Shown here: positions 4-50,308 of the stretch, one piece after another
How the letters are laid out: each line of letters starts with the position of its first letter
Numbering within the stretch: the stretch's first letter is position 1
Assembly: GCA_026413225.1 (NCBI GenBank)
Contig: CM048560.1
Span: forward strand, 13,596,001 to 13,660,000
Direction: 5' to 3'
Length of the DNA: 64,000 bases
Source: Otis tarda
Taxonomy: Eukaryota; Chordata; Aves; Otidiformes; Otididae
Notes under the pieces: generated by a model
The model's database searches: none
Told to the model about the DNA's origin: nothing
The model's input: the letters and a program-made list of their open reading frames with translations, nothing else
Program-made: the position numbers and the translations under genes

Positions 4-42
4 CGGTTTCCCAGAATAAGTGCTTCCTGAGCTAGAGAAACC
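4..42 (-). CDS. Exon 72: [13 protein letters not shown], last exon in window
   Basis: A 39-nt phase-0 exon, acceptor TTATTTTACAG and donor CCG/GTA at the window edge. It shares the G-K-P ending with exon 71. The intact donor shows that the gene continues to the left. Confidence 0.84.
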
Positions 43-2510
43 CTGTAAAATAATTATAAACCATTTATTTTTTGTTCTATGAGACACCTAGTGAATCGTG
101 TCCAAAGAGCACACAGCAGTCTTGAAAATGCCCTAGGTATTAGTAGTTTTGATACTGACTTTGATTTATCTTTTTCCTTCTACTTTTTTCCCCTACTTTA
201 ATTGAATGGTCTCAAGTAAACACAACAGTCCTCTCTATTCCATGAATAAAGTTTCAGAGGATTTTCAAAGCAATATCATTGACTGAACTACAAAGTTTGC
301 AACTGAAAGAGTTATTCTGGTATTTAAATACATCATTCTTAATAGAGTGATCCAAGCATGTTCCCTATGAGTAAGTAACAGAATACAGCAACACTTTCCA
401 ATGAATACTGCCGCATCCTGAAGTTCAAGTTTGAACAAAATGGTAGAATCATAGAATAGTTTGGGTTGAAAGGGACCTTTAGAAGTCATCTAGTCCAACC
501 TCCCTGCAATGAGCAGGGACAAAAATATTCCAATTTTTACTGGTCAGTTTTCTCAGATATTTACCATTGTAACATAATTTTAAATTTCACCCTCATTGTT
601 ACCTATTTTAAAATACCAATATACATATTTCTAGCTTGGTTGTGGAATACTGAAAGAAGAATATCCTTACTGGCTTTCCTTGATGACTGCCTCCTGAGAA
701 AGACGAACCCTGAAAAAAGATACTCGTTTTCGACTCTAAGCCTATTTGTATTTAGTATATTCTTGCTGTCTAGAATAAAGGACCACAGGAGAACAAACAC
801 TGTTTTGTGTCCAGTCATCCAAAAATCCCAGGGAAAAGCTTATTTGAAATACAAATATTTAATATATTTCTGTTACAAGTATTCTTTTGAATGGTGCATT
901 AGTCAGAGAATTTAATTCAAAGTTTTCAAGAAGAAGGAGCTGTTTGGTAGTTCTGATGTGTTTAATACACAGAAAGGAAAAAAATAATAAGGTCCAATTA
1001 AACATTAATTCACCTGCAATCAATCTACAGTTAGATTTTGGGGGAGTAGAGGTAAGCGTTAAGAGTCCTTTACACCACTACTTGAAGAAAGCTCCTATAA
1101 GGAAGGTAACTGAACATAAAAGAGGATACTGAAAAATTAGAAGTTCTGCAAGAGTCTTACTCAGTTTTCTGGCAAAGTTGCTCTGCTTATTTGGATATCA
1201 TTGCCAACAGGAAATCTTACAAGCCTTGACTCTTTAAGAAATGCCATCAAATATACTAAACAAAATGCCTCAGCTTTATGATTCATGTATAAGAAAATGT
1301 AACATTTGTGCCCACTTTTTAATAACAGGTGGATACACTTTATTTTCTATAAGAGATAAGCTAAAACATTGGGTGTGTTCATTTATATCTCCTGTGATTA
1401 ATGACAACAAGAGAAAGGTCTAAATTACATAGTAAAAAAAAGTGGTCTGAAACAGAAGATGAAAATATGCACAGTCAAATGTCAATTATTATTTCCTTCA
1501 AAAAGAAAAAGAAAATATTTTCTTCAAAGCAAGCCAGAAATACTTAAGATAAATGCATATAAAACCAATGAAAAAAAGTGAGCCCTGAGCATAAAGTATA
1601 TTATTACTATTAATTTAAACAGAACTAACTGTTTAGAAGTAACTGTTCAGAAGTCTCTTATAAAAAAATAAAGATCCTGTAATCTAATTCTATGATTACT
1701 AGAACTAATCCAGATATTGACTAGAAGTTCAGTTACAGAGCAAAATGCTGGCTCAAAACTATGGAACTGTGTGAAAATAAATACTGTATTTGCATTTGTT
1801 GAGATTATAGCAGGTAAGTAAATCATGTGACACACTTTGCATATGTAAGTAATTCTCAGAAAAATGTCTAGCCCATAACTAACTGGATATAATTTTTAAC
1901 AGGCTTATAAGAAAAAAGAAAAGTAAACTTGAAATTTTTTTACTTACTGGTTTACCGTGTTGTCTGCCTCCAGAAGAATATGGGCCCTGTAAGATGTCAA
2001 TCAAATATTTATTAATTCAGTGAAAAAATCTTCTATCACTGTCTTGAGACAATTTGTGCAGTACTGAGGACAAACTTATTTGGATGTTGTTTGAACAAAA
2101 AGTAACTGGGGTACCTGCACACCAAAACAATGGCAATTTGTTATTCTGAATCAAAAGCAGTGTTATGAAACACAGTATAGCTGTTATAGTACATATACAT
2201 AGAGTATATGCTCTGTTTTACACAGAGCAGTAATTCATTGTAACCAATTATTTTATTCAGCTTGCTGAAATGACTTTAATTAATATTACCTCAACTATTT
2301 AAGCTCAGTAAAATGGCCAAATGAATGTCTCTTTTAGCATCAAGTAACTGACCTCATCCAGACAGTACAGGGAAAGTTAGGAATGATGGGACGGGAAGAG
2401 AATATACTCACCTGCCCAGCATACTGGCTGCTTCCTGAGGGAAAAGATCCCTGTTAAAAAAAATCACAGGAAACTTAAGTGACTTAAGCGTTGGCAGAAT
2501 AACAGCAGTT

Positions 2511-2543
<33 letters not shown>

Positions 2544-38500: not shown

Positions 38501-41500
38501 TTCTTAATGCAATAATTTGCTGATTTTTGGGGCATGAGGAACAAATGTAAAAGCGTAGCAGACACCCTCCTGAGGCAACTGGTTTGATCTCATAAGAACT
38601 GTATTACAATTATGGAAATCATAAGAAAAAAGTATTCTTACCTGGGGGTAGGTATGACGCTGCAAATGAAACAAACCAATCTTTAATTATTTTGCACAAG
38701 GGCTTGTCCAAACAGAATACTGCAGCAGAAAAAGAGCCCTATCTTTTAGACGCAATACACAACCAAATGTGAAAGAAAGATGCGGAAAGGGTAGCATAGA
38801 GCAAATGCATCTTAACCTTCATTCAGGTTAGAACAACAACATGTGTGATTAGAACTAGACATCAGAAAATCATATATATCAAATGTTATGTCATACAAAC
38901 TCACTTTAAGCACCTTGAGGCTAAATTTACTTTTGTCTGACTATATGAATTCCAAGTAAGCAGAGTGGAAATTTCATAGTTTAAAAATGAGAGTGGAATT
39001 GAATTTACAAAAGAAAACTGCAATAGAAACAGAAAATCAAAACTATTCAGGAACACAGAAGCTGTATACATTGAGAGACCTGGAATCTGCAGCTAATCCA
39101 ATATCTCTGCAAGTACTGACAGCAATCATAGAACCATGAGATTTGTAGCTACCTTACTACTGGCTTTCCCTGAGGATAATTATGCACCTATGGTAAACCT
39201 TGCCTGCTAAAGAGTTGTCTCCATACACCAGGAATCTTTCTGACAAATTAAGCCTATAGATATTTGAAAGCTTTTTGAGTCAAAATTCTGAGCATTGTAG
39301 AGAAAAATGGCTTACCACAGGTGGAAACGGGTTGCTGTTGGCAACAACCACTACCTATGAAGAAATCAGAGAAAGCTGTTTACTCATCATAGAGTTTATT
39401 TAAATAGTTAAATATGCTAGGAAAATGACAAATACTGAATTGTCTAAATTTACAAACTCTGACAATAATGCTATGGATGATCACTTTTATAAAATACTAT
39501 TTCGATAAAAAAAAATTAATACACATTACCAAGCAAAGAAGAATATACACGGTTTACACTAGAGCATAAAGAGATAAAAGACTCGCTCCCAGTCACACAA
39601 TGTCTCAGCTGTAGAGGCAGAAGCAGGATTTCATGTATTGTGCCATATCTACTGGCCTATACTCTATGTCCTTCTTGATCTTCAACTTTCCATTCCAAAC
39701 TGGAAATTTCTTTTTCTCTTTATTCAGTATTATGCTAAAAAAAGGCTTAATACTGAGTCTATTAAAAAAAAAAAAAAGCCAAATGCAGTAGTAGTATATT
39801 CTGGTTAGGTTTTAATGTTTTCTCATTAGAAGCATTTTTTCCTTTAATTTTTTTTTAAACTGACAACAGTTCGTATTTCCCAGTGGTGTAAAAAGGAAGA
39901 GGAGAGCTGGTACTATCAGAAGTAAAGAATTCTAATAGAAAACAGGGAGAAGTATTACTTTTTTAAAACTGAGTTATTAAAAAAATAATCTATCAGTATG
40001 TTTTGCATTCTTAAAACAATGGCAAATTAAAATGAAAAAAAAAAAAAATACCTGTGAAGACATGAATGGGTACACTGTGTGTCTACTGGACACACCACAG
40101 TATCAGCCCTGAGCTTCCCAGGCACTGAACTGAACGGAAGAGTCCATGTCAATACTGAGAGTCCAATTCAACAGTAATGTGAATTCTGTTGATTTCATCT
40201 GCTTTGAGTCACGCTCATTCTCCAGTCTCATCTGAATAATAATTACATAATCTATATCCTTAAAAGTCCTAATTTCCATAAACTTGTATGAAATTCTATT
40301 TTATACACAGTTAAGTCAACTACCAACAAAAGCCACCACAGCACAGCTAGTTAATACAAGGCATCTAGGAATCAAACTGATTCAAATCATATTAATCAAT
40401 CTGGGTTAAAAACTTGAAAAGCCTTAACTGGTAAAAGGAACTGTAGTACTGCTGAAATATAAGGAGTCATACCAAGTTACGACTGTAAGAATTTTTTCCC
40501 TTTGAATTAAAAAGAAAAGAAGTGCTTACCTTCTTACTGGACTCTGAACTGCTTGAAGGGACAGACTGTAAAGAACACAGAATCCTTTTTTTTGCTTAGG
40601 TAAATGTATGACAAATTAACTACAGCATTATTTTCCACAATAATGTTATAGCTAACATCATTTCCCTAAAGTACCAAATAAAATAAGGTTCTGAAGAAAA
40701 ATACTAATGTATTGGCAATTAATAAATGAACAACTGAAATAAACCAACTTTTAAATAAAACAACTTTTTAATAAAGAATTTTTTTTCTACAAATCACCAT
40801 TATTTTGCTAGTTTTACACAGCACTGTATAAAAGCTGCAAATGTTTAATCTAACATAAAATTGGAAGTTTGTTTATAATAAAATAATTGTTAGGAAAAAA
40901 AAACCAACCCAAACTCCAGAACCTATCCCTCCAAAACTAAAAAACCTACCATTGAAATATAAACTGGAATAAATGGGATGCGCCCATTTACAAAGAATAC
41001 AGATGTTTTAAATAAAGCATAAAATAACATGCAGCAAAGTCTTCAATTTCATCAACCTATAGGTACCATTGCATAGGCAAAAGCCACAAAAAATACTTTT
41101 AATTCTTTGTAACTATCAAAGAAAGCACTGACTTTCAGAAAATCACAATAAAAGTAACTGGTATTCATTTACAGAATAAATGTGCAAACCAGAAGTAACT
41201 AACTTCTAATAAAGTTGGTATCACAACAGACACTAACCATGTAACTCATCTATTGAAGTTATTTCCAGACATGATTATTATTTAACCATTTGAAGACAGT
41301 TCTCCTTTATCTCCTTCCATGAAATTTATTATTGTTTGGTAAAATTTGGGCATATCTGCTTAGTTTCTGAATAGCTTAGGAAACTGAAAACATGTTGGAA
41401 AGCACATAGTTACCTGGCCATACGTAAGACCACTGCTGGATGCACCCTAAAATAAAAACATAAATTAGGTATTTATTTATATAATAATTATTAATTATAT

Positions 41501-44500
41501 CTAGAAGTCACCACTTTTTTCCTTAGAGGATGTACACTTCAAATCAAACTCATTTCATCTATACTTAAATAAATCTAGGGCAATAGTAGAGTACACTGAA
41601 CTTGCTTAAAGATAACTGAAGTAAAATTTTCCAACATCCTACTGTAGTCATAAGATTAATGTTGCTCTATCGCAAATATAGTTTACACTTATATATTAAA
41701 CAAAGATAAAATATAGTTAATATTTAGGAATTAGTATAAATAATGATGTATTTAAAGTTAAGCATATGATCAAGCAGTTTTTGGCTAGGGTTTCAGTTCC
41801 TAACAGGCATTAGAGAATGCTGTTCTGATAGATTTTTTTACTTGCTTTTATGATTTAAAAAATGGAAAATATGTTACATTTTAAAATAAACCTCTTTTCA
41901 GGTGAAAATGACGTAAATAAGATTAACAATAGAAATTTATCTAATTAAAGAATTATTGGATTAATACTCAAAGACTGTAAAAAACCCAAATAATATTGCA
42001 CAATATGCAATATCCAAAGACAATTACTGTAACAGATAAAAAGCATTATGCAGTAAGAATTCTGAAATTTTATTAGGCTAACAAATTAAGCATTTATAAT
42101 AAGTGATAAGTAGTCCCTATAACATGAATGATTACACTTTGAGGCAGTGACAATGTAACAACTTTTAATTTTGGTTTTCAACCTCAGACTGTCACCATTG
42201 TCCTTAACATATTTAGGAAGAATAATACAACTTTGCAGAAGAGAATCAAATGCAATTTGGAATAAGGAGATGGGTTGAGAAGCATAGCAGTAGACAATCA
42301 GTAAATATGTATATAACCAGCTTACATCTTGACAGGCGTGTTGACTATATACACCAGCAGCACCTCCCTAAGAAAAAAAATGAAAACGGTTATTTCTTTT
42401 CTATAATTGCTTAAGAAGAAAAGGTACACTTCAGAAACCCTCAGTTCTGACCAATCCTTACATAGAACATGCAAAGAATAGATGATAGGAGTGTACTCTC
42501 CACTAATAATGTGTGAGAACCCACGTGTGAATATAAGAGAAAGGCACATTAGCCCTTTGTATATAAGTGATTGTCTAGTGGTACTCAGGAAACATTTTAA
42601 AACAGACACTGCCAAGACATTATTTTAATAGAAATATATCTCTATATAAAATTATATATATAATGATATAATTATATAAATTCACTTATTATTATTAATA
42701 CAATATTCTCCCCAAAACTGTAATTTTGTTGTTCTTTGCAAAAACCCAATACACATTGTGACAAATTTTACAAGTACTGATTACATGAATGTTCTACATT
42801 TTTTGAAACATTGTCCTTTTTGGCACTGAGTCATCCCCATTTTTCTAGTTTGAGGTGACAACTGATAGTGCTTGGCAATAGAATTACATGACTAGCTATT
42901 TTTGTTTACTTGCTATACCATGAAAAACAAGCAAAAAACCCTGTCATTTACATAGAAAGAAACTTGACTGTTTCATTTACTTTTCAAGTTTTTTCTCATT
43001 TTTTATACTGAGTAAATGTTTGAACATAGTAACTTTGCATTATAAAATCTTATCCTGTAAATGCTGAAAATAAATCCAAGTAATTATATCTATTTGACAT
43101 AAATCTACAGATATTTGAGTCTGTACAATTAGTCACCATCTTAATAAAAATGCTTCAGCTAAGTTTTTTATCTATTCAGCACCACGTTAGAGTACTCTTG
43201 CATCTTTCATCTATTTCTGGTTTGACCTGTCTAGGATTCATAACTTCACAAGTATCCCTGCTGCATTAAAGAATGAAAAACTGAAAAAGCCTTAGTTATT
43301 ATAGATATCTGTGTGATTGCTTCTGAGAGGAGGAACAACTTTGAACATGCAGACCAATTCACACCAGTCTTGTCTTGGTAGAAGGGGAGAATAGACAACC
43401 TATATAATGAGTGTAATGTAAATCTAACACACAACCTCCTCCAGTCCTTTTCTCATTATTCTATAATCTGTATGTTTCTATTTAACTTTTTAACATCTCT
43501 GTTTGCCAACTACTTCATATCATTGAATAAACTGTAATATTAAACCTCTAGCTCTCTCTTCATTATTCTCTAGTGGCAAGAGAAACCCCCACAGAACGCT
43601 CATAAATAGCGCAATTGAAGGCTAGGAGTTACTATGAATATAGATATGTTGGGGACAAAAATGTAAATGTAAGAAAAGTGCTTACAGGGCCACATCCACT
43701 CTTGCTTATAGTGTAGACTACTCCTTTCTGAAATAAAAACAGAAGTCAATTATTTCCATGTTAAAAAAAAAGCGGGGGGGGAGGCAGGAGTCAGAATGAA
43801 AAAAAAAAAAAAGCACCCTGCTGTTTATAGCATGAAAATGAAAATCTGTGCAACTAACAATGTGTATGAGCAAGTACAGAGGCTGCCAGTTCACTGGCAA
43901 CTTACTGTTACAATTCTAATTTAGTATGAAACATTAGTCACCACCTGGTTTTCATATAACTTTTCCATTGGTCATGCAACCTTTCAAAATCCACAAGTTG
44001 TTTTACTAAACAGCCTATAATTTAGAAAAAATAAATAACTTCAGGTTATTTACATACATGACATTTACATTTACATTACATTTACATGTAAATTTACATT
44101 TACATGACAAGATAATAAACTCAGCTCTTCAAAAAGAGTACATGTTATATATGAAAGAAATACAATGAAGAAAATCAGTATTTAGTATATACATCAAAAT
44201 AACTGGCATTTCTCAGAGTCTGGTAATTCCACTTACAAGTCGTGAAGGTTGAACAAATGGAATATTACTAGATAGTTCACTAATAAATATAGTCATTAGT
44301 AAGCAGTAAGAAATATATCCTTGGAGAAGCTCAGTTCAAGAAACTGGAGACGTACCAGAAAGCATCTGACAGTTCAAGTGTAAATAGGCACATTATGGTT
44401 GTGGAGATAATTAACCAAAAAGCAAGTATACATTTCTGTGATTAAAGAAGTGAAAGTGATCAGTGAGATTGCAGACATAAATACCCTAGAAATTTTAAAA

Positions 44501-47500
44501 CCCTAATTAGACAGTGAGATCCCCAAATTTTCAACTGCAAACATAATCCGGTGTTAAAAGTGATACTGGAGCTTTAATATACACATGAATATCCAGTGAA
44601 GTTTGGAGAAATTTTGCATATTTTTGTGGAGAAAAGAAAGAAACACAAGTATAATTAGTTCTTTTGTTTTCATTACTAAAAGAAATAAGAAAAATGCCTA
44701 ACAAATCAATTAATAATAAGTACAGTTTCTTTTTCATTATGCCAGATGCCTCTGAAACTATAAAACAAATGGTTTGTGACTGTGTTTGCATGCACATGTG
44801 CACACACAGGTAGGAATCCTCTAGGAAGATGGAAGAAATCTTTTTTTTTTCCTCAAAAGGGTCAAATTATCGTTTGATAAAAATGTTTAATGTGTGAAAT
44901 GGGAGGTGGAGGAGCATCTTATAGGTAAGAATACTGACAGCCAAGCTATTGAGTTCAATAGAGTGTAGGTAGCTGAACCTAGTACATGTACCGAACATAC
45001 AGTTTACTGGATTAGTAACTCTGACATTCTGTGCTAACTAGCAGAGATGATATTTCAGTACTCTGTAGTTACAGAATTTTAGTTGTTTGAGGTTACTGAA
45101 GGAAAATGTACAAATGCTGGAAGTTAGTACTCTTACCTGACTGCCTGAATAGCTGCTCTGAGAGGAACTGGAAGGTCCAACCTGTAAAGAAACCAAAATG
45201 CAATTTATTATTTTGCAGAAAATTTATTTTTATATAAATTACTTTCAGGAAAGAAAGATCTACTTAGTGGGAAAAGGAAGAACACAAAGTATTTTTCTGT
45301 GACGTCGTTCCACCAACTCATACTACTAAAATTATTTCAGAGATCTTTAAAGTCAAATAAGCAAAACTATACCAAAACAGCTCTTATAAATTAACATAAT
45401 TCTGCTGTTTGCACCCTTTTTTATCTGGTCTCCTCCATCATTAAGGAGATGACCATTAAACGTAGATGAAAACTTTTGACTGATGTGACTATGTAATGTA
45501 GGGCATATTTGCTGGAAGGAAGGAAAAGGAGAAAAAGAGGCTTCTCCACAGAGCTGAAAGTCATAGTTTACAGAAAAAAAAATCAAATAGTTGAATTTTA
45601 TATCTAGATCATGATTTGCAAAAGGTAAAGTTTCAGAGCTGTTGAAATAAGTGATCTTGAAAAGCAAGCAAGCACTATGACTGAAAAGTGAAGACAGGAA
45701 GAAAACTTCTATTTGAAAGTTACTCCAGATTAGCTAGAGAGAACCTGTAGAGGAAATGGTAACAAGACCAACAACCATACAGAATGTTTGGGATTTTAAT
45801 CAACCAAGGTAAATTGCCAAAAAGAAAAATAAATTGAGCAACAAGAGGGATAAAGATGTGACTAGAAACAGCTTTTGACTAGGTCTTGAGATCTTGGGCT
45901 ATTAGCAGTATGTCAATGTCTTTAGAGAAAGAATATTTACCATGATGCATCGGCCTTGTGTAGTGTAAGTCCCTCCACGCTGCAAGAAGATACAGGTTCC
46001 AGTTACTGTTTATTGACTGGTGTATCAATATGAAATTATTTTAAACAGGAAATCAACTGAATTCACGTTCATAGCCTGAGTGAAGAAGTCAAGCGTTTCA
46101 TTTCTTAAAATGCCTTACACATTGTAACAATCTGATCAGAGAACTGACATTAACTAATCAAAGATACCTTCAAAACTGTATACAAAAATGTAAGCATAAA
46201 TGAGATCTCGCTAGCAAAGTAATTTGAATGGTATGATATAATCTTCATTCTACAACCATGAAACAACTGGACCAATAGGACAAGAATTCTAAAACTGAAG
46301 TAATTGAAAATTGAGAAGTTGAAGAAAAATTGCCCTTACCTTGTTACATTCTAATTCTATCATAAGCTGTGAAAAAAAAAAAATGAGGAAACATTTACAA
46401 GTTATTTACTAGGGAAAAAAAGCAGCTTTTAGGAAACAAGAAGTACATTCAGTGAGGCGAGGGACAAAAGACAAGTGTTCATTCTTGGTAGGATCACCAG
46501 AGGACACAAATCAGTGTTGCTACAGTCAAGAACCAATACAGCAGATTTGAACAGACTTTCTTCACTTTAGCTGCCTATTGTATTTAAGATGTTTCATGTA
46601 AGCATAATTCTTGGCCAAAAAATAAACAAATTCATTTCTAAGAATATGTACACAGCTGTAGTTGCCAGGGATTGGGGCAGCAGTTAAGAACAGCACAGTA
46701 CACCAGAAGTACAGCAGTTCTCCTTATGACCAATATTCTTTTCTTTGTCTTTATGCTATGCATTGTTTTGATAACTAGATTATTAGCTTCCTTATTTCTG
46801 TGAGAGAAAAAAATAATATTTATTTTACTTTTTCATCAATTTATTAAGATGATTAGGCAGTTAAATTAAAAGTGTTGAATGTTGAAAATATCTAATGATT
46901 TTGGCCATTTCAGTTAATGAATTCATGACAAGGAATGTATGTCTTGTATCAAGTCAAAGATATTTTAATTTAGTGTACTAATTTCTAGTCTGCAAATACA
47001 CACAAAACATACCTTCCTTTTACTTTTTCCTGTCCCATTAACTGACTCAGAACGCGTAGGTGTGAGAGTTTCACTTTGAATTCCAACCCAGAATTTCTCT
47101 AGATCTTGAAATACAGTTGCACTGGACAGAAAATAAATTAGTCATTATTTTTCTATGAAAATATTTCAGTATAAAATACAAATAAACGCTTCTCCCTCAC
47201 TCAGAGAAGAAAATCCACTCTATTTTGATTTTAAGGGTATACAGTAAAAGTTTGAAAAGAACATAATCACTTTCCAGAACACTTTTCCAGTTACTGTATT
47301 ATCATCCAACATAATTTTGAAGATAAATAAAATAGATGCTGAGAAGGAACAGAAGAGGAATGGACACTATTTGAAGAAGCACTGACTCCAGTGGGGAGTA
47401 TCAGCTCAAATATCCATAAAAACTGTTACACAACTTTCCCATTCTGACAATCTACATCTATGATGGTGAACTGATCTTCATCGCATTAACAAGTGGAAGT

Positions 47501-50308
47501 AATTGCGTTTCAAATTTGTGTTCTTTTGCTTCTTTTCGTATTCCTCAAGATTTAGTGAAGCAAGGCCAAGATGTCCCTATCATAAATCTACACTTCAAAC
47601 AATATCAAGCTATCAAATATTTAGATATTTTCCAATTACATCAAGCATACATTTTTTTAGACTAGGTGATATTTTCACAAGCTTCAGATCTGCAAGAAAA
47701 GTAGCATTAAATGTAGGATAAATTTGTCTTCTCCTGTTTTCAGCAGTTAGTTATGGGTTGTAAACTTATTTTTACATTTATCTTGCAAGCATCTACATCA
47801 AACTACTATTCTTCTGCTGTTCAAAATAAAAAAGTTATAATTGAAAAGAATCTGAACTTCATTTATTCAGGGAACTAGTTACATTCATATTGTTGTTCAA
47901 TATAAAGTATAAAAACTTGTTACTCAAAAATCCATTAATAACACTGTGCTTATTGGAATTGTTCACATATGTTAACATCTGTAGGACTGTGTTTACCTTT
48001 TATGATGATATCTTGAAATGGATATCATGTTATTTAATGGACATAGTGGGAAATTATGACAAATTATTAAAATATCCATGATTATGGCAAGACAAGAACA
48101 TCAGAAACAGCAAGACAGATCCATGTCAAAATAATCCATACAAATAAAATTTCAAGGAAAAAAAAAAAGAAAAACAATTATTTACATAAACTGAAGATCT
48201 CTAACATCACGTGGAGCAATCCATGTTGTTGTAACTTGCTGCTTCACATCTGAATTTGCATGCCTTACTGCTGAATTCTGCAATTAAAAAGAAATACATA
48301 TAATTATCTAAGATGCGAAAGTGACTTTTACCTATATTATTAGGGGCACTGCCTCTACTACAACAGGTAACACTGGCGTCCTCCTAAAAAGTGCCAGGTA
48401 GCTTCTGTGTTAGATTCATATCATATTCATATAGAAGATAGATTTATTTATTGAGAATGTCTAAATCTTTAAACTCTACTGATAAAATAACTTTGCCATA
48501 TAAAAATTGCTCACTATTTCTATTAATTGTGATCAAAATATTTAAAAGGAAACCAAGTTTAAGTAAGTATTGCAAAGACCAAACACATACCGTCACATTA
48601 TGACACTCCAAGCCTTTCGTGTTTGGATCTGTAATTTTAAAAGTACCAACAGGAACATCTCCTTCTATTTCTCGAGCTTGTAGATGAAATTCTCTAAAAC
48701 CAACATCTTTCAGTGCATTTAGAGTCACTGTGAGAACAGACATTTTGAGAAATTTAATTTCCATACACAACTAAAACCTCTTAAATGTTTAACAACTAAT
48801 TTCCCTCACTCCAAAGCACAAGACTGCATGTACAGAAATTACTTAAAACTTTTTACAATCTTAAAAGATGTTGGGATTCATTACAGTTTTTATTAATTAT
48901 CAAGAGAATGATGATAAAGGAAAAGATCACAGATGTGACCATAAGAGCGTTGGCAGGTGGCATGCCACAGGTGAAATGTCAATATGCTCAAAGGGCAACC
49001 TGATGCAGCTCCCTGAGAGCAGGTACTGGATACTTACAATAGAAAAGTAGTGCTAAAGCAAGAAAAGCATAGTTAGGGAAAACAAAACAAAACAAAAAGG
49101 TTAGCAGCATCTAGGATTCAATATTTTTTCAATATATTTAAATCTATCCATCATTTTCCTGGCAATACTGTTTAAAAAATAGCTATCAGTAATCAAACAG
49201 CCCTTGCATCCTTGAAGGAGTTATTCACACGTTTTTCCCAGAATGCCAGCTATAATAGGACTCTAACACTTCTCCATTCTTCCGTCAACATATCACTCTC
49301 TGTGGAAGCACATCCATGCTACTAGGCTCAAGTAAAACAGAATCGCAGCTGAACAGTAGCTACTTAGTGAATAATGTTCTTTTTCAGCTGCAGAGATACA
49401 ACAGGTGATGGGTTACAACTCACTTCCAGTTCCATGCTGCTTCTAGCAAACGGCTAGAAAAAGAAGCATTCACAAGCCACTTAATGTGTGACAGCACCAT
49501 GAGATGGCATCATAGTGTGGGGAAACAAGGCTGTCAAAGTGTGCCACCCAGAGAGCAATTTCAGATTAGGAAGACAAAAAGGTTGTTTAAGCCACAATAG
49601 CTCCACTCCCTGTAATTTGATAAAATCTGGGATGCAGCTCTTAGAAGGATGACTCAAAATGTCTCACTCTTGAGTTGTCTTATACTGCATCCTGAATTTT
49701 TATTTTCCTGTAAGATGACAGCATGTGAAGATCTAATGAGTAGGATACCTTTGTATTGCAGAGCGCTGATACAACAGCAAATACTCAAATATGAATTTAA
49801 AGAGCAACTAATTATTAGTCCAGTTTGGCCAGCTGTCCCATTTCATTTTCATTTTGTAATAAAAACTATAGCATGAAGTTATGGTATATTTATCAGACAG
49901 GAAAAAGAAAAAAAATATTTTCAGTTATACAAATATATACTTACATATATATAAAAAACGTTTCAAAAACATTAATATCTCAGGTATAGATGAAAAATAT
50001 TGAAATTAAAAAAGTAATTTAACTAGACTGAGAGGGAAAAGGGGGAATTTTGGTGAAGACTAGTAATTCTGGGAGACACAGAAAAAGATTTTATGTCATT
50101 CAGATTATTTACCTTTGATTTCATTTCCTGGGTCAAAGTTATTAAAAGATGCAGTAATAACATATGGTGGTACAGATGACTGTGGTTCAGCTTCATAGTT
50201 TGGTAACATAGAATCACAATCAATTGAAGTATTTGTCTGTGGGAAACCAAGAATTCCGGGCAAAAATATCCCACAGAACAGAAAAACAAAGCAGGAGTGT
50301 CTCCTCAT
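4..50308 (-). CDS. Secreted Reeler-domain protein with long G/S/Y/Q-rich mini-exon repeat tail (partial, 3' end outside window)
   Basis: This is a split gene with 72 coding exons placed from splice sites and frame, giving about 1038 codons in the window. Residues 1-21 are a hydrophobic signal peptide and residues about 22-165 form a Reeler domain: CDSMLP near the start, Cys31 and Cys107, W130 and the FWVGIQS strand near the end. Residues 174-177 read KSKR, a possible proprotein convertase site. Exons 5-72 add 860 residues of short Gly/Ser/Tyr/Gln units, one per exon, all separated by phase-0 introns. Lengths are 39 nt (28 exons), 42 (16), 36 (9), 30 (6), 45 (4), 33 (2), 27, 21 and 18. Reeler domains occur in reelin, FRRS1, REELD1 and insect defence proteins, usually in secreted or membrane proteins. 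The tail is unlike any family I know; a structural or adhesive secreted protein is inference. No stop codon or polyA signal of this gene is in the window. Confidence 0.85.
443..520 (-). mobile_element. CR1 LINE 3'-end fragment
   Basis: The block AGAATCATAGAATAGTTTGG followed by AAAGGGACC and TCCAACCTCCCTGC is the reverse complement of the conserved avian CR1 3' end. Confidence 0.8.
1948..1986 (-). CDS. Exon 71: [13 protein letters not shown]
   Basis: A 39-nt phase-0 exon, acceptor CATCTTACAG and donor CCA/GTAAGT. The unit ends G-K-P instead of G-G-Q. Confidence 0.85.
2412..2450 (-). CDS. Exon 70: [13 protein letters not shown]
   Basis: A 39-nt phase-0 exon, acceptor TTTTTAACAG and donor CAG/GTGAGT. 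The intron before it contains the solo LTR at 2973-4121. Confidence 0.86.
2515..2536. repeat. Poly-T tract
   Basis: An uninterrupted T run in the exon 69-70 intron. Confidence 0.95.
2973..4121. mobile_element. Solo LTR of an endogenous retrovirus, 5-bp target duplication
   Basis: A GC-richer block of 1149 bp starts TGTCGTGGTT and ends AACTATGACA, i.e. LTR-type inverted termini. It is flanked by the direct repeat CCAAT (2968-2972 and 4122-4126). An AATAAA lies near 3932 in the second half, suggesting plus orientation. No gag, pol or env sequence is attached, so it is a recombined solo LTR. It lies in the intron between exons 69 and 70. The open frames inside it are chance frames. Confidence 0.82.
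4812..4850 (-). CDS. Exon 69: [15 protein letters not shown] donor
   Basis: A 39-nt phase-0 exon, acceptor CTTTTTACAG. The donor is CAG/GCAAGC, fitting the strong consensus of the rare GC-AG introns, so I treat it as functional. Confidence 0.83.
5292..5327 (-). CDS. Exon 68: [12 protein letters not shown]
   Basis: A 36-nt phase-0 exon, acceptor GTTGAATATAG and donor CAG/GTAGGC. Confidence 0.86.
6380..6409 (-). CDS. Exon 67: [10 protein letters not shown]
   Basis: A 30-nt phase-0 exon, acceptor GTTTTATACAG and donor CCA/GTAAGT. It has a C-x-C motif and pairs with exon 57. Confidence 0.84.
6720..6759. repeat. T-rich (TTTG)n simple repeat
   Basis: Repeated TTTG units with T runs. In the duplicate (near 12586) this tract is only a short T run. 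Confidence 0.9.
6924..6959 (-). CDS. Exon 66: [12 protein letters not shown]
   Basis: A 36-nt phase-0 exon, acceptor TTTTTGTCAG and donor CAG/GTATGG. It is the intact duplicate of broken exon 56. Confidence 0.87.
7322..7360 (-). CDS. Exon 65: [13 protein letters not shown]
   Basis: A 39-nt phase-0 exon, acceptor TTTCCTTAG and donor CAG/GTAAAA. It is the duplicate of exon 55. Confidence 0.87.
7800..7838 (-). CDS. Exon 64: [13 protein letters not shown]
   Basis: A 39-nt phase-0 exon, acceptor TTTGCTTCAG and donor CAG/GTGAGA. Confidence 0.88.
8295..8333 (-). CDS. Exon 63: [13 protein letters not shown]
   Basis: A 39-nt phase-0 exon, donor CAG/GTGAGA. This is the best representative of the 13-residue consensus unit. 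Confidence 0.9.
8697..8735 (-). CDS. Exon 62: [13 protein letters not shown]
   Basis: A 39-nt phase-0 exon, donor CAG/GTAAGA. It is close to the consensus unit. Confidence 0.88.
9120..9158 (-). CDS. Exon 61: [13 protein letters not shown]
   Basis: A 39-nt phase-0 exon, acceptor TTTTTTCAG and donor CAA/GTAAGC. Confidence 0.88.
9442..9480 (-). CDS. Exon 60: [13 protein letters not shown]
   Basis: A 39-nt phase-0 exon, acceptor TTTTTTACAG and donor TAT/GTAAGT. The terminal Gln is replaced by Tyr. Confidence 0.86.
10217..10255 (-). CDS. Exon 59: [13 protein letters not shown]
   Basis: A 39-nt phase-0 exon, acceptor TTTTTCCAG and donor CAA/GTAAGC. Confidence 0.87.
10794..10829 (-). CDS. Exon 58: [12 protein letters not shown]
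   Basis: A 36-nt phase-0 exon, acceptor CTCCTTTAAAG and donor AAT/GTAAGC. Confidence 0.8.
11362..11402. repeat. Poly-T tract
   Basis: A long, slightly interrupted T tract just left of the CR1 copy. Confidence 0.95.
11482..12088 (+). mobile_element. CR1 LINE, 5'-truncated 3' part
   Basis: A sense-strand stretch translates to [20 protein letters not shown] and other pieces of the C-terminal end of CR1 ORF2. It then runs through the typical 3'UTR (CCAACCCAAATGATTCTATG) with ATTCT-type terminal repeats. Frames are broken. It sits in the intron between exons 57 and 58. Confidence 0.85.
12276..12305 (-). CDS. Exon 57: [10 protein letters not shown]
   Basis: A 30-nt phase-0 exon, acceptor TTCTTTACAG and donor TCT/GTAAGT. 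It has a C-x-C motif and pairs with exon 67. Confidence 0.84.
13007..13042 (-). pseudogene. Exon 56: [12 protein letters not shown] with destroyed donor (AT for GT)
   Basis: The 36-nt unit has an intact acceptor (TTTGTCAG) and frame. The two bases after CAG are AT instead of GT, where the duplicate exon 66 has GT. It is probably skipped; because all introns are phase 0, skipping removes 12 residues and keeps the frame. Confidence 0.75.
13405..13443 (-). CDS. Exon 55: [13 protein letters not shown]
   Basis: A 39-nt phase-0 exon, acceptor TTTCCTTAG and donor CAG/GTAAAA. It is identical in peptide to exon 65. Confidence 0.87.
13513..13551 (-). CDS. Exon 54: [13 protein letters not shown]
   Basis: A 39-nt phase-0 exon, donor CAG/GTATGC. 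Its downstream intron flank (13472-13512) matches the flank of exon 56, showing that the exon was copied with its intron. Confidence 0.87.
13819..13857 (-). CDS. Exon 53: [13 protein letters not shown]
   Basis: A 39-nt phase-0 exon, acceptor TTTTTTTCAG and donor CAG/GTGGGA. Confidence 0.87.
14173..14211 (-). CDS. Exon 52: [13 protein letters not shown]
   Basis: A 39-nt phase-0 exon, acceptor TTTTTACAG and donor CAG/GTAGAT. Confidence 0.86.
14483..14521 (-). CDS. Exon 51: [13 protein letters not shown]
   Basis: A 39-nt phase-0 exon, acceptor ATTTTTCCAG and donor CAT/GTAAGC. Confidence 0.86.
15235..15273 (-). CDS. Exon 50: [13 protein letters not shown]
   Basis: A 39-nt phase-0 exon, acceptor ATTTTTTTTAG and donor CGG/GTAAGC. 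It is a divergent, charged unit. Confidence 0.78.
16866..16904 (-). CDS. Exon 49: [13 protein letters not shown]
   Basis: A 39-nt phase-0 exon, acceptor TTATTTTACAG and donor AAT/GTAAGC. It is an acidic variant of the 13-residue unit with the G-G-S core kept. Confidence 0.82.
17635..17676 (-). CDS. Exon 48: [14 protein letters not shown]
   Basis: A 42-nt phase-0 exon, acceptor TTCTGAACAG and donor CAG/GTAAAT. Confidence 0.87.
18143..18187 (-). CDS. Exon 47: [15 protein letters not shown]
   Basis: A 45-nt phase-0 exon, acceptor TTTCTGTATAG and donor CAG/GTAAAT. It is the intact relative of the decayed copies near 20558 and 21600. Confidence 0.87.
18312..18350 (-). CDS. Exon 46: [13 protein letters not shown]
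   Basis: A 39-nt phase-0 exon, the duplicate of exon 42. Confidence 0.88.
18453..18494 (-). CDS. Exon 45: [14 protein letters not shown]
   Basis: A 42-nt phase-0 exon, the duplicate of exon 41. Confidence 0.88.
18894..18932 (-). CDS. Exon 44: [13 protein letters not shown]
   Basis: A 39-nt phase-0 exon, the duplicate of exon 40. Confidence 0.88.
19035..19076 (-). CDS. Exon 43: [14 protein letters not shown]
   Basis: A 42-nt phase-0 exon, the left-hand duplicate of exon 39. Confidence 0.88.
19398..19436 (-). CDS. Exon 42: [13 protein letters not shown]
   Basis: A 39-nt phase-0 exon, donor CAG/GTAAGT. Its peptide is the same as exon 46. Confidence 0.88.
19539..19580 (-). CDS. Exon 41: [14 protein letters not shown]
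   Basis: A 42-nt phase-0 exon, acceptor TTTCTTTCAG and donor CAG/GTAAAT. Its peptide is the same as exon 45, with silent differences. Confidence 0.88.
19983..20021 (-). CDS. Exon 40: [13 protein letters not shown]
   Basis: A 39-nt phase-0 exon, acceptor TCTGTACAG and donor CAG/GTAGCT. Its peptide is the same as exon 44. Confidence 0.88.
20124..20165 (-). CDS. Exon 39: [14 protein letters not shown]
   Basis: A 42-nt phase-0 exon, acceptor TTTTCATTGCAG and donor CAG/GTAAAC. It is in the right-hand copy of the 18-20 kb tandem duplication and is identical in peptide to exon 43. Confidence 0.88.
20558..20594 (-). pseudogene. Degenerate repeat exon with lost acceptor
   Basis: The stretch ends CTG/GTAAAT and reads [10 protein letters not shown] in the frame set by the donor, like the YDSSSESY unit of exon 47. 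The expected acceptor ATAG is ATATG here, so no splice site remains at that position. Confidence 0.5.
21600..21625 (-). pseudogene. Degenerate repeat exon (frame and acceptor decayed)
   Basis: A good donor (CAG/GTAAAA) follows ...VYSNSNSGQ in frame, matching the [15 protein letters not shown] unit of exon 47. The only nearby AG (CTTTAG) would give a 26-nt exon that breaks the frame. The G-G-S start is unrecognisable. I read it as a dead copy. Confidence 0.5.
22425..22466 (-). CDS. Exon 38: [14 protein letters not shown]
   Basis: A 42-nt phase-0 exon, acceptor TTTAATTTATAG and donor CAG/GTAATT. It has a G-G-C-x-C start, shared with exons 57 and 67. Confidence 0.82.
22477..22498. repeat. (AAAC)n microsatellite
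   Basis: Five or more AAAC units directly upstream of the exon 38 acceptor on the minus strand. Confidence 0.93.
22990..23031 (-). CDS. Exon 37: [14 protein letters not shown]
   Basis: A 42-nt phase-0 exon, acceptor TTTTTTTCACAG and donor CAG/GTCAGG, which is weaker than most here. Confidence 0.78.
23938..23979 (-). CDS. Exon 36: [14 protein letters not shown]
   Basis: A 42-nt phase-0 exon, acceptor TTTCTTCACAG and donor CAG/GTAAGA. It has two N-x-S sequons. Confidence 0.8.
24179..24220 (-). CDS. Exon 35: [14 protein letters not shown]
   Basis: A 42-nt phase-0 exon, acceptor TTTTTTACAG and donor CAG/GTAAAC. Confidence 0.8.
24857..24892 (-). CDS. Exon 34: [12 protein letters not shown]
   Basis: A 36-nt phase-0 exon, acceptor CCTTTACAG and donor CGA/GTAAGT. 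It has one Cys and is basic at its end. Confidence 0.77.
26629..26658 (-). CDS. Exon 33: [10 protein letters not shown]
   Basis: A 30-nt phase-0 exon, acceptor TTATTTTCCAG and donor CAG/GTGAGT. It carries an N-D-T sequon. Confidence 0.8.
27268..27312 (-). CDS. Exon 32: [15 protein letters not shown]
   Basis: A 45-nt phase-0 exon, acceptor GTCCTTCTAG and donor GAT/GTGAGT. It is strongly acidic (six Asp) with one Cys, unlike the neutral units around it. Confidence 0.78.
27655..27693 (-). CDS. Exon 31: [13 protein letters not shown]
   Basis: A 39-nt phase-0 exon, donor CAG/GTAACT. It has two adjacent tyrosines. Confidence 0.84.
27814..27849 (-). CDS. Exon 30: [12 protein letters not shown]
   Basis: A 36-nt phase-0 exon, acceptor TTGTTTTATAG and donor CAA/GTAAGT. 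Confidence 0.86.
28022..28060 (-). CDS. Exon 29: [13 protein letters not shown]
   Basis: A 39-nt phase-0 exon, donor CAG/GTAGGT. The acceptor is a tandem CAGCAG, allowing one extra Gln. Confidence 0.84.
28196..28234 (-). CDS. Exon 28: [13 protein letters not shown]
   Basis: A 39-nt phase-0 exon, acceptor GTTTTCACAG and donor CAA/GTAAGT. It belongs to the S-Q-N-Y-G subfamily with exons 29 and 30. Confidence 0.87.
28485..28505 (-). CDS. Exon 27: DGSQGGQ
   Basis: A 21-nt phase-0 exon, acceptor GTATTTTACAG and donor CAG/GTGGGT. Confidence 0.75.
29575..30008 (+). mobile_element. CR1 LINE 3' fragment with residual ORF2 frame
   Basis: A 128-codon frame reads [20 protein letters not shown] and later [20 protein letters not shown], the C-terminal end of CR1 ORF2 protein. 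A short 3'UTR ending ATTCTATGATTCTATAAA follows. The open frame suggests a fairly young copy, though it is 5'-truncated. It lies between exons 26 and 27. Confidence 0.88.
30423..30455 (-). CDS. Exon 26: [11 protein letters not shown]
   Basis: A 33-nt phase-0 exon, acceptor TTTTGAACAG and donor CAG/GTAAAT. It has one Cys. Confidence 0.8.
31725..31763 (-). CDS. Exon 25: [13 protein letters not shown]
   Basis: A 39-nt phase-0 exon, donor CAA/GTAAGT. It has one Cys. The acceptor is a tandem TAGCAG, so an extra Gln could be included. Confidence 0.84.
32094..32135 (-). CDS. Exon 24: [14 protein letters not shown]
   Basis: A 42-nt phase-0 exon, acceptor TTTCTTACAG and donor CAG/GTAAGC. It is the duplicate of exons 17 and 20. 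Confidence 0.88.
32380..32409 (-). CDS. Exon 23: [10 protein letters not shown]
   Basis: A 30-nt phase-0 exon, the duplicate of exon 19. Confidence 0.87.
32690..32731 (-). CDS. Exon 22: [14 protein letters not shown]
   Basis: A 42-nt phase-0 exon, acceptor CTTGTCTTAG and donor CAG/GTAAGC. It is the duplicate of exon 18. Confidence 0.88.
33059..33094 (-). CDS. Exon 21: [12 protein letters not shown]
   Basis: A 36-nt phase-0 exon. It is a shorter relative of exons 17, 20 and 24, lacking one Pro-Gln pair (6 nt). Confidence 0.88.
33110..34290 (-). other. Intron spacer between duplicated blocks
   Basis: Unique AT-rich sequence separating the copies of the 32-36 kb duplication. No exon with both splice sites was found. 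Confidence 0.6.
34336..34377 (-). CDS. Exon 20: [14 protein letters not shown]
   Basis: A 42-nt phase-0 exon, a copy of exons 17 and 24. Donor CAG/GTAAGG. Confidence 0.88.
34631..34660 (-). CDS. Exon 19: [10 protein letters not shown]
   Basis: A 30-nt phase-0 exon, acceptor TTTCTTTAAAG and donor CAG/GTAAGA. Its peptide is the same as exon 23. Confidence 0.87.
34941..34982 (-). CDS. Exon 18: [14 protein letters not shown]
   Basis: A 42-nt phase-0 exon. It is a copy of exon 22 with one change (AGC for GGC), turning the usual Y-G-Q ending into Y-S-Q. Confidence 0.87.
35310..35351 (-). CDS. Exon 17: [14 protein letters not shown]
   Basis: A 42-nt phase-0 exon, acceptor TTTCTTACAG and donor CAG/GTAAGC. 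It encodes the same peptide as exons 20 and 24. Confidence 0.88.
35608..35637 (-). CDS. Exon 16: [10 protein letters not shown]
   Basis: A 30-nt phase-0 exon, donor CAG/GTAAGA. It is a near copy of exons 19 and 23 ([10 protein letters not shown]) and lies in the third, partial copy of the 32-36 kb duplication. Confidence 0.87.
36567..36611 (-). CDS. Exon 15: [15 protein letters not shown]
   Basis: A 45-nt phase-0 exon, acceptor GTCCTGGGTAG and donor CAG/GTAAGT. It is Gln/Ser-rich. Confidence 0.82.
38057..38092 (-). CDS. Exon 14: [12 protein letters not shown]
   Basis: A 36-nt phase-0 exon, acceptor T-run then CAG and donor CAG/GTAGAA. Confidence 0.75.
38642..38659 (-). CDS. Exon 13: RHTYPQ micro-exon
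   Basis: An 18-nt phase-0 exon, the smallest seen, with acceptor TTTCATTTGCAG and donor CAG/GTAAGA. Both sites are strong and the peptide ends in Gln like its neighbours. Confidence 0.68.
39316..39354 (-). CDS. Exon 12: [13 protein letters not shown]
   Basis: A 39-nt phase-0 exon, acceptor TTTCTTCATAG and donor GTG/GTAAGC. It is an unusual Val/Pro unit without Gln or Tyr. Confidence 0.75.
40530..40565 (-). CDS. Exon 11: [12 protein letters not shown]
   Basis: A 36-nt phase-0 exon, acceptor GTTCTTTACAG and donor AAG/GTAAGC. It is Ser-rich. Confidence 0.8.
41414..41446 (-). CDS. Exon 10: [11 protein letters not shown]
   Basis: A 33-nt phase-0 exon, acceptor TTTTATTTTAG and donor CAG/GTAACT. 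It has the classic Y-G-Q ending. Confidence 0.85.
42326..42367 (-). CDS. Exon 9: [14 protein letters not shown]
   Basis: A 42-nt phase-0 exon, acceptor TTTTTCTTAG and donor GAT/GTAAGC. It has one Cys. Confidence 0.8.
43686..43727 (-). CDS. Exon 8: [14 protein letters not shown]
   Basis: A 42-nt phase-0 exon, acceptor TTTTTATTTCAG and donor CCT/GTAAGC. It is a Cys-bearing divergent unit. Confidence 0.78.
44051..44108. repeat. ACATTT/ACATG simple repeat
   Basis: Repeated TTTACAT units with one inverted join (TTTACATGTAAA) near 44092. Confidence 0.85.
45137..45181 (-). CDS. Exon 7: [15 protein letters not shown]
   Basis: A 45-nt phase-0 exon, acceptor TTTACAG and donor CAG/GTAAGA. It is the first clear Ser/Gly/Tyr/Gln repeat unit. 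Confidence 0.85.
45941..45979 (-). CDS. Exon 6: [13 protein letters not shown]
   Basis: A 39-nt phase-0 exon, acceptor CTTCTTGCAG and donor ATG/GTAAAT. It has one Cys. Confidence 0.78.
46340..46366 (-). CDS. Exon 5: LMIELECNK
   Basis: A 27-nt exon, acceptor T-run then CACAG and donor AAG/GTAAGG. It encodes 9 residues with one Cys and is the first mini-exon after the Reeler domain. Confidence 0.75.
47013..47121 (-). CDS. Exon 4: end of Reeler domain and KSKR basic site
   Basis: The exon is 109 nt. The acceptor TTTTCTGTCCAG completes Ile142, and the donor is AAG/GTATGT (phase 0). It encodes [17 protein letters not shown], the last conserved Reeler strand. A linker then carries an N-G-T sequon (N170) and ends KSKRK, which fits a K-x-K-R convertase site. 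All later introns are phase 0. Confidence 0.9.
48186..48277 (-). CDS. Exon 3: Reeler domain, Trp strand
   Basis: The exon is 92 nt with acceptor TTTAATTGCAG and donor TTTAT/GTAAAT (phase 2). It encodes [10 protein letters not shown] then [12 protein letters not shown], the typical Reeler H-x-N...K...W-x-A-P motif (W130). Confidence 0.9.
48591..48727 (-). CDS. Exon 2: Reeler domain core
   Basis: The acceptor TTCTCACAG restores Val66 across the junction with exon 1, giving VTLNAL. It reads on through FREFHLQAR and VGTFKI to GLECHNVT, the central Reeler strands with conserved Cys107 and an N-V-T sequon at 109. The length is 137 nt and the donor is ACG/GTATGT (phase 0). Confidence 0.92.
48728..50112 (-). 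other. Intron 1 of coding region
   Basis: A phase-1 intron of 1385 bp with GT-AG ends. I see no repeat or extra exon in it. Confidence 0.8.
50113..50308 (-). CDS. Exon 1: start codon, signal peptide, start of Reeler domain
   Basis: The exon encodes 65 codons plus one base. The ATG follows directly on a good acceptor (pyrimidine-rich tract then CACAG), so at least one non-coding 5' exon must lie upstream. The first 21 residues ([20 protein letters not shown] plus G) are a basic then hydrophobic signal peptide, probably cut before FPQT. An N-T-S glycosylation sequon is at residue 26. The stretch CDSMLPNYE with a later PPYVITAS and FDPGNEI is the typical opening of a Reeler domain. The donor is AAAG/GTAAAT, leaving phase 1. 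Confidence 0.9.

Follow-up and report, generated by a model that had tools for sequence, protein, structure and literature searches.

What kind of protein is encoded by a gene in which a Reeler domain is followed by dozens of exons, each coding for little more than a dozen residues? This question is raised by a locus of Otis tarda contained in a window of 64,000 nucleotides (C9:13596001-13660000 of a genome of 1.198 Gb), to which all positions below are relative. Taken from anatomy to role as one statement, the reading that we favour with reasonable but far from full confidence is that of a Reeler protein, secreted or displayed at the surface, whose stalk is disordered, modular by exon and tunable by splicing. 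The anatomy of the gene is close to certain, while its surface or matrix role is put forward tentatively.

Splice modelling combined with homologues yields a gene of 74 coding exons spread across about 51.5 kb of the minus strand and encoding 1082 amino acids with zero internal stops. It is composed of four Reeler exons, 69 mini-exons and one terminal exon. The mini-exons thus make up 69 of the 74 exons and 872 of the 1082 residues (81%); all are in phase 0 and every length is a multiple of 3. The gene runs past the left edge of the window, which holds 68 mini-exons (46366-4), the final mini-exon and the terminal exon being located outside. The earlier note had claimed a single minus-strand gene with a complete Reeler domain followed by 68 mini-exons of 18-45 nt in this window. 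Both the count and the lengths were confirmed and, in a first model of 1007 aa, Pfam PF02014 matched from 1 to 131 of its 131 positions on the four exons between 50308 and 47013 (98.7 bits for a cut-off of 21, E 5e-28). Reeler is the sole domain of that model, in which Pfam gave no match to S100, DOMON or cytochrome b561. This agrees with the earlier statement that the architecture is unlike that of FRRS1. The first exon also encodes an N-terminal hydrophobic segment, read as a signal peptide. A search as far as 95000 did not reveal the upstream start exon of other birds (MPTHQ...DK), and the Rfam search of the window returned zero matches. Among solved structures, the Reeler part had two weak and irrelevant matches (E 0.19 and 0.7). 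The head and the first mini-exons, which form the neck of the protein, are as follows.

50113..50308, minus strand, E1: start codon, signal peptide, start of Reeler; ends in phase 1
48591..48727, minus strand, E2: Reeler; ends in phase 0
48186..48277, minus strand, E3: Reeler (NSAV...); ends in phase 2
47013..47121, minus strand, E4: end of Reeler, linker, basic site KSKRK; ends in phase 0
46340..46366, minus strand, neck mini-exon LMIELECNK, Cys 1 (bird homologues)
45941..45979, minus strand, neck mini-exon of 13 aa, Cys 2 (bird homologues)
45137..45181, minus strand, neck mini-exon of 15 aa (scan and bird homologues)
43686..43727, minus strand, neck mini-exon of 14 aa, Cys 3 (scan and bird homologues)
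42326..42367, minus strand, neck mini-exon of 14 aa, Cys 4 (scan and bird homologues)
41414..41446, minus strand, neck mini-exon of 11 aa (scan and bird homologues)
40530..40565, minus strand, neck mini-exon of 12 aa (scan and bird homologues)
39316..39354, minus strand, neck mini-exon of 13 aa (bird homologues)

Exons of this size call for chance controls. The splice-site and composition model returned 65 phase-0 candidates on the minus strand from 47000 to -1300, 63 of which belong to the final set. A chance origin of the tail exons is ruled out, since 20 first-order Markov sequences gave a mean of 0.5 candidates (maximum 2) and the plus strand of the same interval gave 0 in phase 0 (2 of another length class). 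The minus-strand flanks of 78.7 and 117 kb contained 1 and 0 candidates, respectively. Since exons of this gene served to train the model, these controls gauge its specificity, not its independence. Lengths not divisible by 3 produced 15 and 7 candidates, with only 1 and 1 clear of phase-0 exons, and a looser length limit gave 3 weak minus-strand matches in the left flank and 4 plus-strand ones in 244 kb. Matching splice-bounded candidates to ten bird proteins led to 72 mini-exons. Three weak and doubtful ones (at 40473, 27491 and 9510) were removed ahead of the final count of 69. Six of the 69 had been missed by the first splice model and were accepted via homologues: four for their unusual composition or donor (46340, 45941, 39316 and 4812) and two below threshold (27268 and 24857). 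The mini-exons of the tail, supported by the splice and composition scan together with a match to bird proteins unless stated otherwise, are listed with the terminal exon.

38642..38659, minus strand, mini-exon RHTYPQ
38057..38092, minus strand, mini-exon of 12 aa
36567..36611, minus strand, mini-exon of 15 aa
35608..35637, minus strand, mini-exon of 10 aa
35310..35351, minus strand, mini-exon of 14 aa
34941..34982, minus strand, mini-exon of 14 aa
34631..34660, minus strand, mini-exon of 10 aa
34336..34377, minus strand, mini-exon of 14 aa
33059..33094, minus strand, mini-exon of 12 aa
32690..32731, minus strand, mini-exon of 14 aa
32380..32409, minus strand, mini-exon of 10 aa
32094..32135, minus strand, mini-exon of 14 aa
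31725..31763, minus strand, mini-exon of 13 aa
30423..30455, minus strand, mini-exon of 11 aa; turtle and lizard models hold a near-identical stretch
28485..28505, minus strand, mini-exon DGSQGGQ
28196..28234, minus strand, mini-exon of 13 aa
28022..28063, minus strand, mini-exon of 14 aa
27814..27849, minus strand, mini-exon of 12 aa
27655..27693, minus strand, mini-exon of 13 aa
27268..27312, minus strand, mini-exon of 15 aa (homologues; below threshold of first model)
26629..26658, minus strand, mini-exon of 10 aa
24857..24892, minus strand, mini-exon of 12 aa (homologues; below threshold of first model)
24179..24220, minus strand, mini-exon of 14 aa
23938..23979, minus strand, mini-exon of 14 aa
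22990..23031, minus strand, mini-exon of 14 aa
22425..22466, minus strand, mini-exon of 14 aa
20124..20165, minus strand, mini-exon of 14 aa (A)
19983..20021, minus strand, mini-exon of 13 aa (A)
19539..19580, minus strand, mini-exon of 14 aa (B)
19398..19436, minus strand, mini-exon of 13 aa (B)
19035..19076, minus strand, mini-exon of 14 aa (A')
18894..18932, minus strand, mini-exon of 13 aa (A')
18453..18494, minus strand, mini-exon of 14 aa (B')
18312..18350, minus strand, mini-exon of 13 aa (B')
18143..18187, minus strand, mini-exon of 15 aa
17635..17676, minus strand, mini-exon of 14 aa
16866..16904, minus strand, mini-exon of 13 aa
15235..15273, minus strand, mini-exon of 13 aa
14483..14521, minus strand, mini-exon of 13 aa
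14173..14211, minus strand, mini-exon of 13 aa
13819..13857, minus strand, mini-exon of 13 aa
13513..13551, minus strand, mini-exon of 13 aa
13405..13443, minus strand, mini-exon of 13 aa
13007..13042, minus strand, extra copy of a 12-aa mini-exon, donor AT for GT; outside the count
12276..12305, minus strand, mini-exon of 10 aa
10794..10829, minus strand, mini-exon of 12 aa
10217..10255, minus strand, mini-exon of 13 aa
9442..9480, minus strand, mini-exon of 13 aa
9120..9158, minus strand, mini-exon of 13 aa
8697..8735, minus strand, mini-exon of 13 aa
8295..8333, minus strand, mini-exon of 13 aa
7800..7838, minus strand, mini-exon of 13 aa
7322..7360, minus strand, mini-exon of 13 aa
6924..6959, minus strand, mini-exon of 12 aa
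6380..6409, minus strand, mini-exon of 10 aa
5292..5327, minus strand, mini-exon of 12 aa
4812..4850, minus strand, mini-exon of 13 aa, GC donor (GCAAGC), good match to other birds (bird homologues)
2412..2450, minus strand, mini-exon of 13 aa
1948..1986, minus strand, mini-exon of 13 aa
671..709, minus strand, mini-exon of 13 aa
4..42, minus strand, mini-exon of 13 aa, last inside the window
-742..-713 (C9:13595258-13595287), minus strand, last mini-exon, outside the window
-1234..-1136 (C9:13594766-13594864), minus strand, terminal exon, outside the window; predicted from DNA

The typical tail unit has about 13 residues and is mostly of the form G...Q, with glycine first in 45 of the 69 mini-exons and glutamine last in 50. 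A length of 39 nt is found in 28 of them and 42 nt in 17. Serine (27%), glycine (24%), glutamine (11%) and tyrosine (8%) dominate the 872-residue tail, which contains 10 lysines and has a pI of 5.8 and a GRAVY of -0.97. Judged from this composition, the tail is presumably disordered. The earlier description of one G/S/Y/Q-rich peptide per exon holds for most units but not for the first eight to ten, which constitute a cysteine neck. Mini-exon sequence accounts for 5.6% of the 47-kb array span. Among the introns, a GC-richer piece at 3000-3900 is a dispersed repeat, whose 40 scored copies, out of 6195 first-look candidates in the genome, are 96-100% identical (window included); an open reading frame of 183 aa at 3258-3809 was rejected as a chance frame within this repeat. 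Another open frame, at 29568-29957 on the plus strand, resembles the terminal part of a CR1-type retroposon protein, and frames like it recur about 61 to 63 kb to the left of the window (-61 to -63 kb).

The gene has relatives in other sauropsids. Matches from birds, crocodile, turtles, lizards and snakes came out of three protein searches (63 of 83, 46 of 478 and 56 of 221 candidates), the remaining results being ten entries lacking a name or organism and one frog protein (40%) with a Reeler domain and without such a tail. Mammals were absent from the named matches, an absence that is not proof, given that a match had to share words of 5 residues and be of similar length. For the Reeler part, a bustard, Ardeotis kori, provides the nearest named relative (97%). 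NCBI/UniRef includes long models of the orthologues in duck, swan, crow, sparrow, ostrich, cuckoo, crocodile, turtles and lizards. The suspicion that the protein may be undescribed is thus not supported, even if its naming in databases is poor. The orthologue models join the head, the tail and the terminal exon. The latter was first predicted from DNA and recurs as the end of the swan, duck, crow, jay, ostrich, cuckoo and turtle models; its motif was recognised in 43 of the 129 proteins stored, of which a single crow contributes 28 as isoforms, and the remainder includes many partial records. In all six orthologue models scanned (6/6), Reeler is the only Pfam domain.

Conservation of the tail was evaluated on 70 units, i.e. 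the 69 mini-exons plus the terminal exon. Units at least 70% identical amounted to 58 in Corvus, 55 in Cyanocitta, 54 in Anas, 50 in Cuculus, 42 in Struthio and 40 in Cygnus, against means of 8.0-11.8 when exon order was shuffled (10 shuffles per bird model). The exons had been selected with ten proteins that include these six, and order alone, controlled by the shuffle, is the independent test; the long models of sparrow and tree finch were left out of it. On the basis of these alignments, exon order is conserved in the six bird models tested. Outside birds, the aligned units drop to 4 in Crocodylus, 3 in Mauremys, 5 in Gopherus and 3 in Podarcis, for shuffled means (maxima) of 2.4 (5), 1.5 (3), 1.5 (3) and 0.5 (2), respectively. 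The tail is barely alignable in crocodile, turtles and lizard, and conservation of the tail itself therefore does not extend outside birds.

The neck behaves differently from the remainder of the tail. Its four cysteines and a tyrosine ahead of the last one align in all of 14 chosen sequences (the window, four other birds, a crocodile, two turtles and six squamates), and the motifs YG[QH]S and P[FY]P are each present in 13 of the 14 (one excerpt is truncated). A conserved module is therefore encoded by the first eight to ten mini-exons, whereas the remainder evolves fast. Between the Reeler domain and the neck lies a basic cluster. The loose motif [RK]x[KR]R occurs in 96 of the 111 proteins with a readable linker (window included, 28 being isoforms of one crow), while the strict furin motif RxKR occurs in 8 of the 111, the window not being among them. 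Crocodile and turtle linkers are basic, yet without even the loose motif. At the other end, the protein reads SSAG, a spacer, about 16 hydrophobic residues and then TSKWSI. This C-terminus is compatible with a GPI signal or with a short span of the membrane, a lysine near the end of the segment being untypical for GPI signals. The hydrophobic end is kept in birds and turtles, whereas ten squamate proteins (geckos, other lizards and snakes) among the 129 stored end in ...RC without such a segment. As a side observation among squamates, the model of the gecko Euleptes europaea contains two Reeler heads, each having a neck of its own, which looks like a fusion of two tandem genes.

How did such an array arise? 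The serial duplication of phase-0 mini-exons proposed earlier is supported by a self-comparison of the window (19 matches), in which the four largest segmental duplications measure 1043 bp (97%), 865 bp (98.5%), 574 bp (94%) and 551 bp (96.6%) and each holds exons plus introns. One module, consisting of 27 residues (A) followed by 27 residues (B), is present in two copies in the window. In crow, sparrow and cuckoo, both A-B copies have residues in common that the window lacks, ostrich displays five near-identical units and the jay model a single A-B pair. Since the A-B copies are alike within species, the repeats look homogenised or re-duplicated per lineage. The array has apparently grown by local duplication of exon plus intron, afresh in separate bird lineages.

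Signs of coding constraint accompany this growth. Differences between exon paralogues fall 18, 19 and 37 times on the first, second and third codon positions (37/74 third; binomial p 0.002) for nine exon pairs within the window picked by nucleotide identity. This test was preferred to a dN/dS of 0.18 obtained from eight pairs, which was discarded as biased because the pairs had been selected for amino-acid similarity. In two duplicated segments with intron divergences of 4.0 and 5.4%, exons differ at 1/147 positions versus 46/972 for introns (p 0.015), these two pairs having been selected after the fact out of nine, with a dead exon copy treated as exon. A third pair, which overlaps, gives the same picture (exon 1/72 versus intron 25/444), while exon and intron show no difference in the two most recent pairs (3/150 versus 13/878 and 2/162 versus 8/700) and differ little in the three oldest exon-bearing pairs (15/81 each versus 45/206, 43/204 and 34/164); one duplicate pair carries no exon. 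The exon copy at 13007-13042, with its AT donor, is probably dead or dying and leaves the frame unharmed.

A protein with this tail could be a secreted, cross-linkable material, silk- or elastin-like and rich in tyrosine and glutamine, in which the tail does the work and the head is released at the basic site. The composition of the tail, the widespread [RK]x[KR]R site and the ten squamate models without a hydrophobic end would suit such a material, as would the homogenisation of its repeats within species, which is a habit of structural repeat proteins. Fibrillar collagen and elastin genes are also long and built from many small, in-frame and serially duplicated exons, in phase 0 too for collagen; unlike in these proteins, neither a Gly-X-Y run nor a VPGVG-type repeat is seen here. 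Besides, a long uniform repeat is absent, 10 lysines in 872 residues would restrict transglutaminase links, and a hydrophobic C-terminus is retained in birds and turtles. Six related names were also sought, without success, in the main text of a zebra finch eggshell proteome (PMC4666066). We regard this material as unlikely, albeit as the most serious competitor of the reading given at the outset.

According to the favoured reading of a Reeler protein on a stalk, the product would be a secreted precursor comprising a signal peptide, the Reeler head, a convertase-like basic site, a disulfide neck and a flexible stalk of variable length, closed in birds and turtles by a hydrophobic, anchor-like segment. 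The tail would lengthen and homogenise via local segmental duplication of exon and intron. The protein would be extracellular, at an epithelial surface or in a matrix, where its Reeler head may bind a partner (matrix, glycan or microbe) and its tail may act as a splice-tunable spacer or a cohesive coat. The anchor-like terminal exon and the conserved neck with its four cysteines go beyond what the earlier note had described, and are new together with the conserved basic site, the lineage-specific homogenisation of repeats and whole-exon differences between isoform models. What the data establish is the exon anatomy, its conservation and the gene order; disorder, anchoring, cleavage, the use of splicing, the site of expression and the binding role belong to the interpretation.

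These differences come from Corvus kubaryi, for which 27 isoform models, all database predictions, were compared with the longest of 28. They include single units (39 protein letters and 10 protein letters, not shown) that correspond to window exons. The differing blocks mostly count 10, 12, 13, 22 or 26 residues, which is equivalent to one or two units (block edges checked in part), longer blocks also occurring and one isoform being divided 6 + 34 by the aligner. As mini-exons are symmetric and in phase 0, skipping or duplicating any one leaves the reading frame intact, and splicing could in this way yield many stalk lengths from a single gene.

Splicing diversity might even be the very point of the gene, which would then be a vertebrate counterpart of the schistosome micro-exon genes and produce many surface variants for immunity or recognition. 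Insect Reeler proteins are tied to defence, every tail exon is symmetric and the crow isoform models, although predictions, vary by exon-sized blocks. The gene also has two hallmarks of micro-exon genes, a signal peptide and a coding sequence made mostly of symmetric micro-exons. However, many mini-exons encode similar low-complexity units and the variants differ mainly in length, which makes this explanation an improbable one. A related formulation, a vertebrate micro-exon gene whose stalk is recombined both in evolution and in the cell to give an isoform repertoire for recognition or coat tuning, appears to us slightly less improbable. Excerpts of PMC4015677 describe micro-exon genes and SmVAL6 on the same plan, i.e. 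a signal peptide, a domain on ordinary exons and then symmetric micro-exons, with skipping of whole exons (for SmVAL6, the text has four ordinary and seven small exons, the figure legend 38 exons). The plan is alike but the resemblance is an analogy only, presumably reached independently, with 69 mini-exons and 81% of the protein here in one vertebrate gene.

The genomic neighbourhood helps to settle what the gene is not. The following neighbours were located, with gene names assigned from the Pfam families for TRMT13, AGL and PALMD, and with the help of record titles for SLC35A3 and MFSD14A.

-72 kb, TRMT13 (Pfam PF05206)
-41 to -47 kb, MFSD14A (tblastn with database fusion proteins)
-17.5 to -26.4 kb, SLC35A3 (tblastn with database fusion proteins)
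+90 kb, AGL (Pfam PF06202)
+135 kb, opposite strand, second Reeler gene, 85 kb from this gene on the same contig
+157 kb, PALMD (Pfam PF03285 Paralemmin)

The second Reeler gene is, from its position, presumably FRRS1, and the gene order reads SLC35A3 - this gene - AGL - FRRS1 - PALMD. Database proteins of duck, swallow, antbird and turtle fuse exons of this gene to SLC35A3 or MFSD14A-like parts; those of the first three map to this locus. The fusions are either read-through transcripts or annotation errors. By eye, the Reeler introns of FRRS1 have phases 1, 0 and 2 at matching places, as expected if an old duplication had taken place. The Reeler exons studied here would thus probably derive from an ancient duplication of those of neighbouring FRRS1, identity being 31% over 67 residues of the first Reeler exon. 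FRRS1 has DOMON and cytochrome b561 parts and is not known to have a mini-exon tail. A further Reeler gene of this genome, at C4:14859792-14860037 and probably REELD1 according to its position, has the Reeler domain in common (32% identity over 68 residues); a scan of 10 kb there did not reveal an array of mini-exons.

Database names of the orthologues include hornerin-, filaggrin-2-, loricrin-, spidroin-2-, sericin 1- and dentin sialophosphoprotein-like as well as FRRS1 reductase. They are misleading and appear to follow composition or the Reeler match. Taken at face value, the first three would designate a cornified-envelope gene of the epidermal differentiation complex (EDC), an assignment backed by the names of long orthologue models and by a low-complexity tail rich in Gly, Ser, Gln and Tyr. 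This assignment is very improbable and already contradicted by Pfam, which gives Reeler and no S100 here and in the 6/6 orthologue models, and by neighbours (SLC35A3, AGL, FRRS1 and PALMD) that are not those of the EDC cluster. Moreover, the excerpt of PMC11431283 attributes two coding exons to S100-fused EDC genes and one to the others, versus 74 and a signal peptide here. The last option, by which the gene is FRRS1 itself or a fragment of it ("FRRS1 reductase, partial", as most bird matches to the Reeler head are named) and the mini-exons are unrelated or an intronic curiosity, is barely credible since the Reeler gene on the opposite strand at +135 kb is distinct and has the position of FRRS1, matches to DOMON and cytochrome b561 are absent from the model, and orthologue models link head, tail and terminal exon.

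In the open-licence PMC literature, no paper on this gene or architecture was found among the matches listed. Some reports may nevertheless touch on it. An excerpt of a microarray study (PMC8273767) mentions 36 "hornerin-like" transcript variants whose levels are reduced in the muscle of wooden-breast chickens at 7 weeks; so many variants would fit this gene, to which they may belong. Likewise, REELD1, a name that may or may not denote this gene here, is cited among the genes higher in green mallard feather samples in PMC8692775, and such a result is also mentioned in the introduction of PMC11050116.

To conclude, if the reading of a Reeler protein on a splice-tunable stalk is true, sauropsids would possess a Reeler head mounted on a stalk that varies by cassette duplication and homogenisation as well as by skipping of symmetric exons, which number 69 in the gene studied here. 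Due to the misleading names, expression studies would file this gene under skin, silk, tooth or iron-reductase proteins. The locus brings within experimental reach, in an ordinary animal, the questions of how such an array expands, keeps its frame and is spliced, and of what a splice-tunable disordered stalk may do for a secreted domain. It offers for this purpose a clear vertebrate case of a gene built mostly from symmetric mini-exons.
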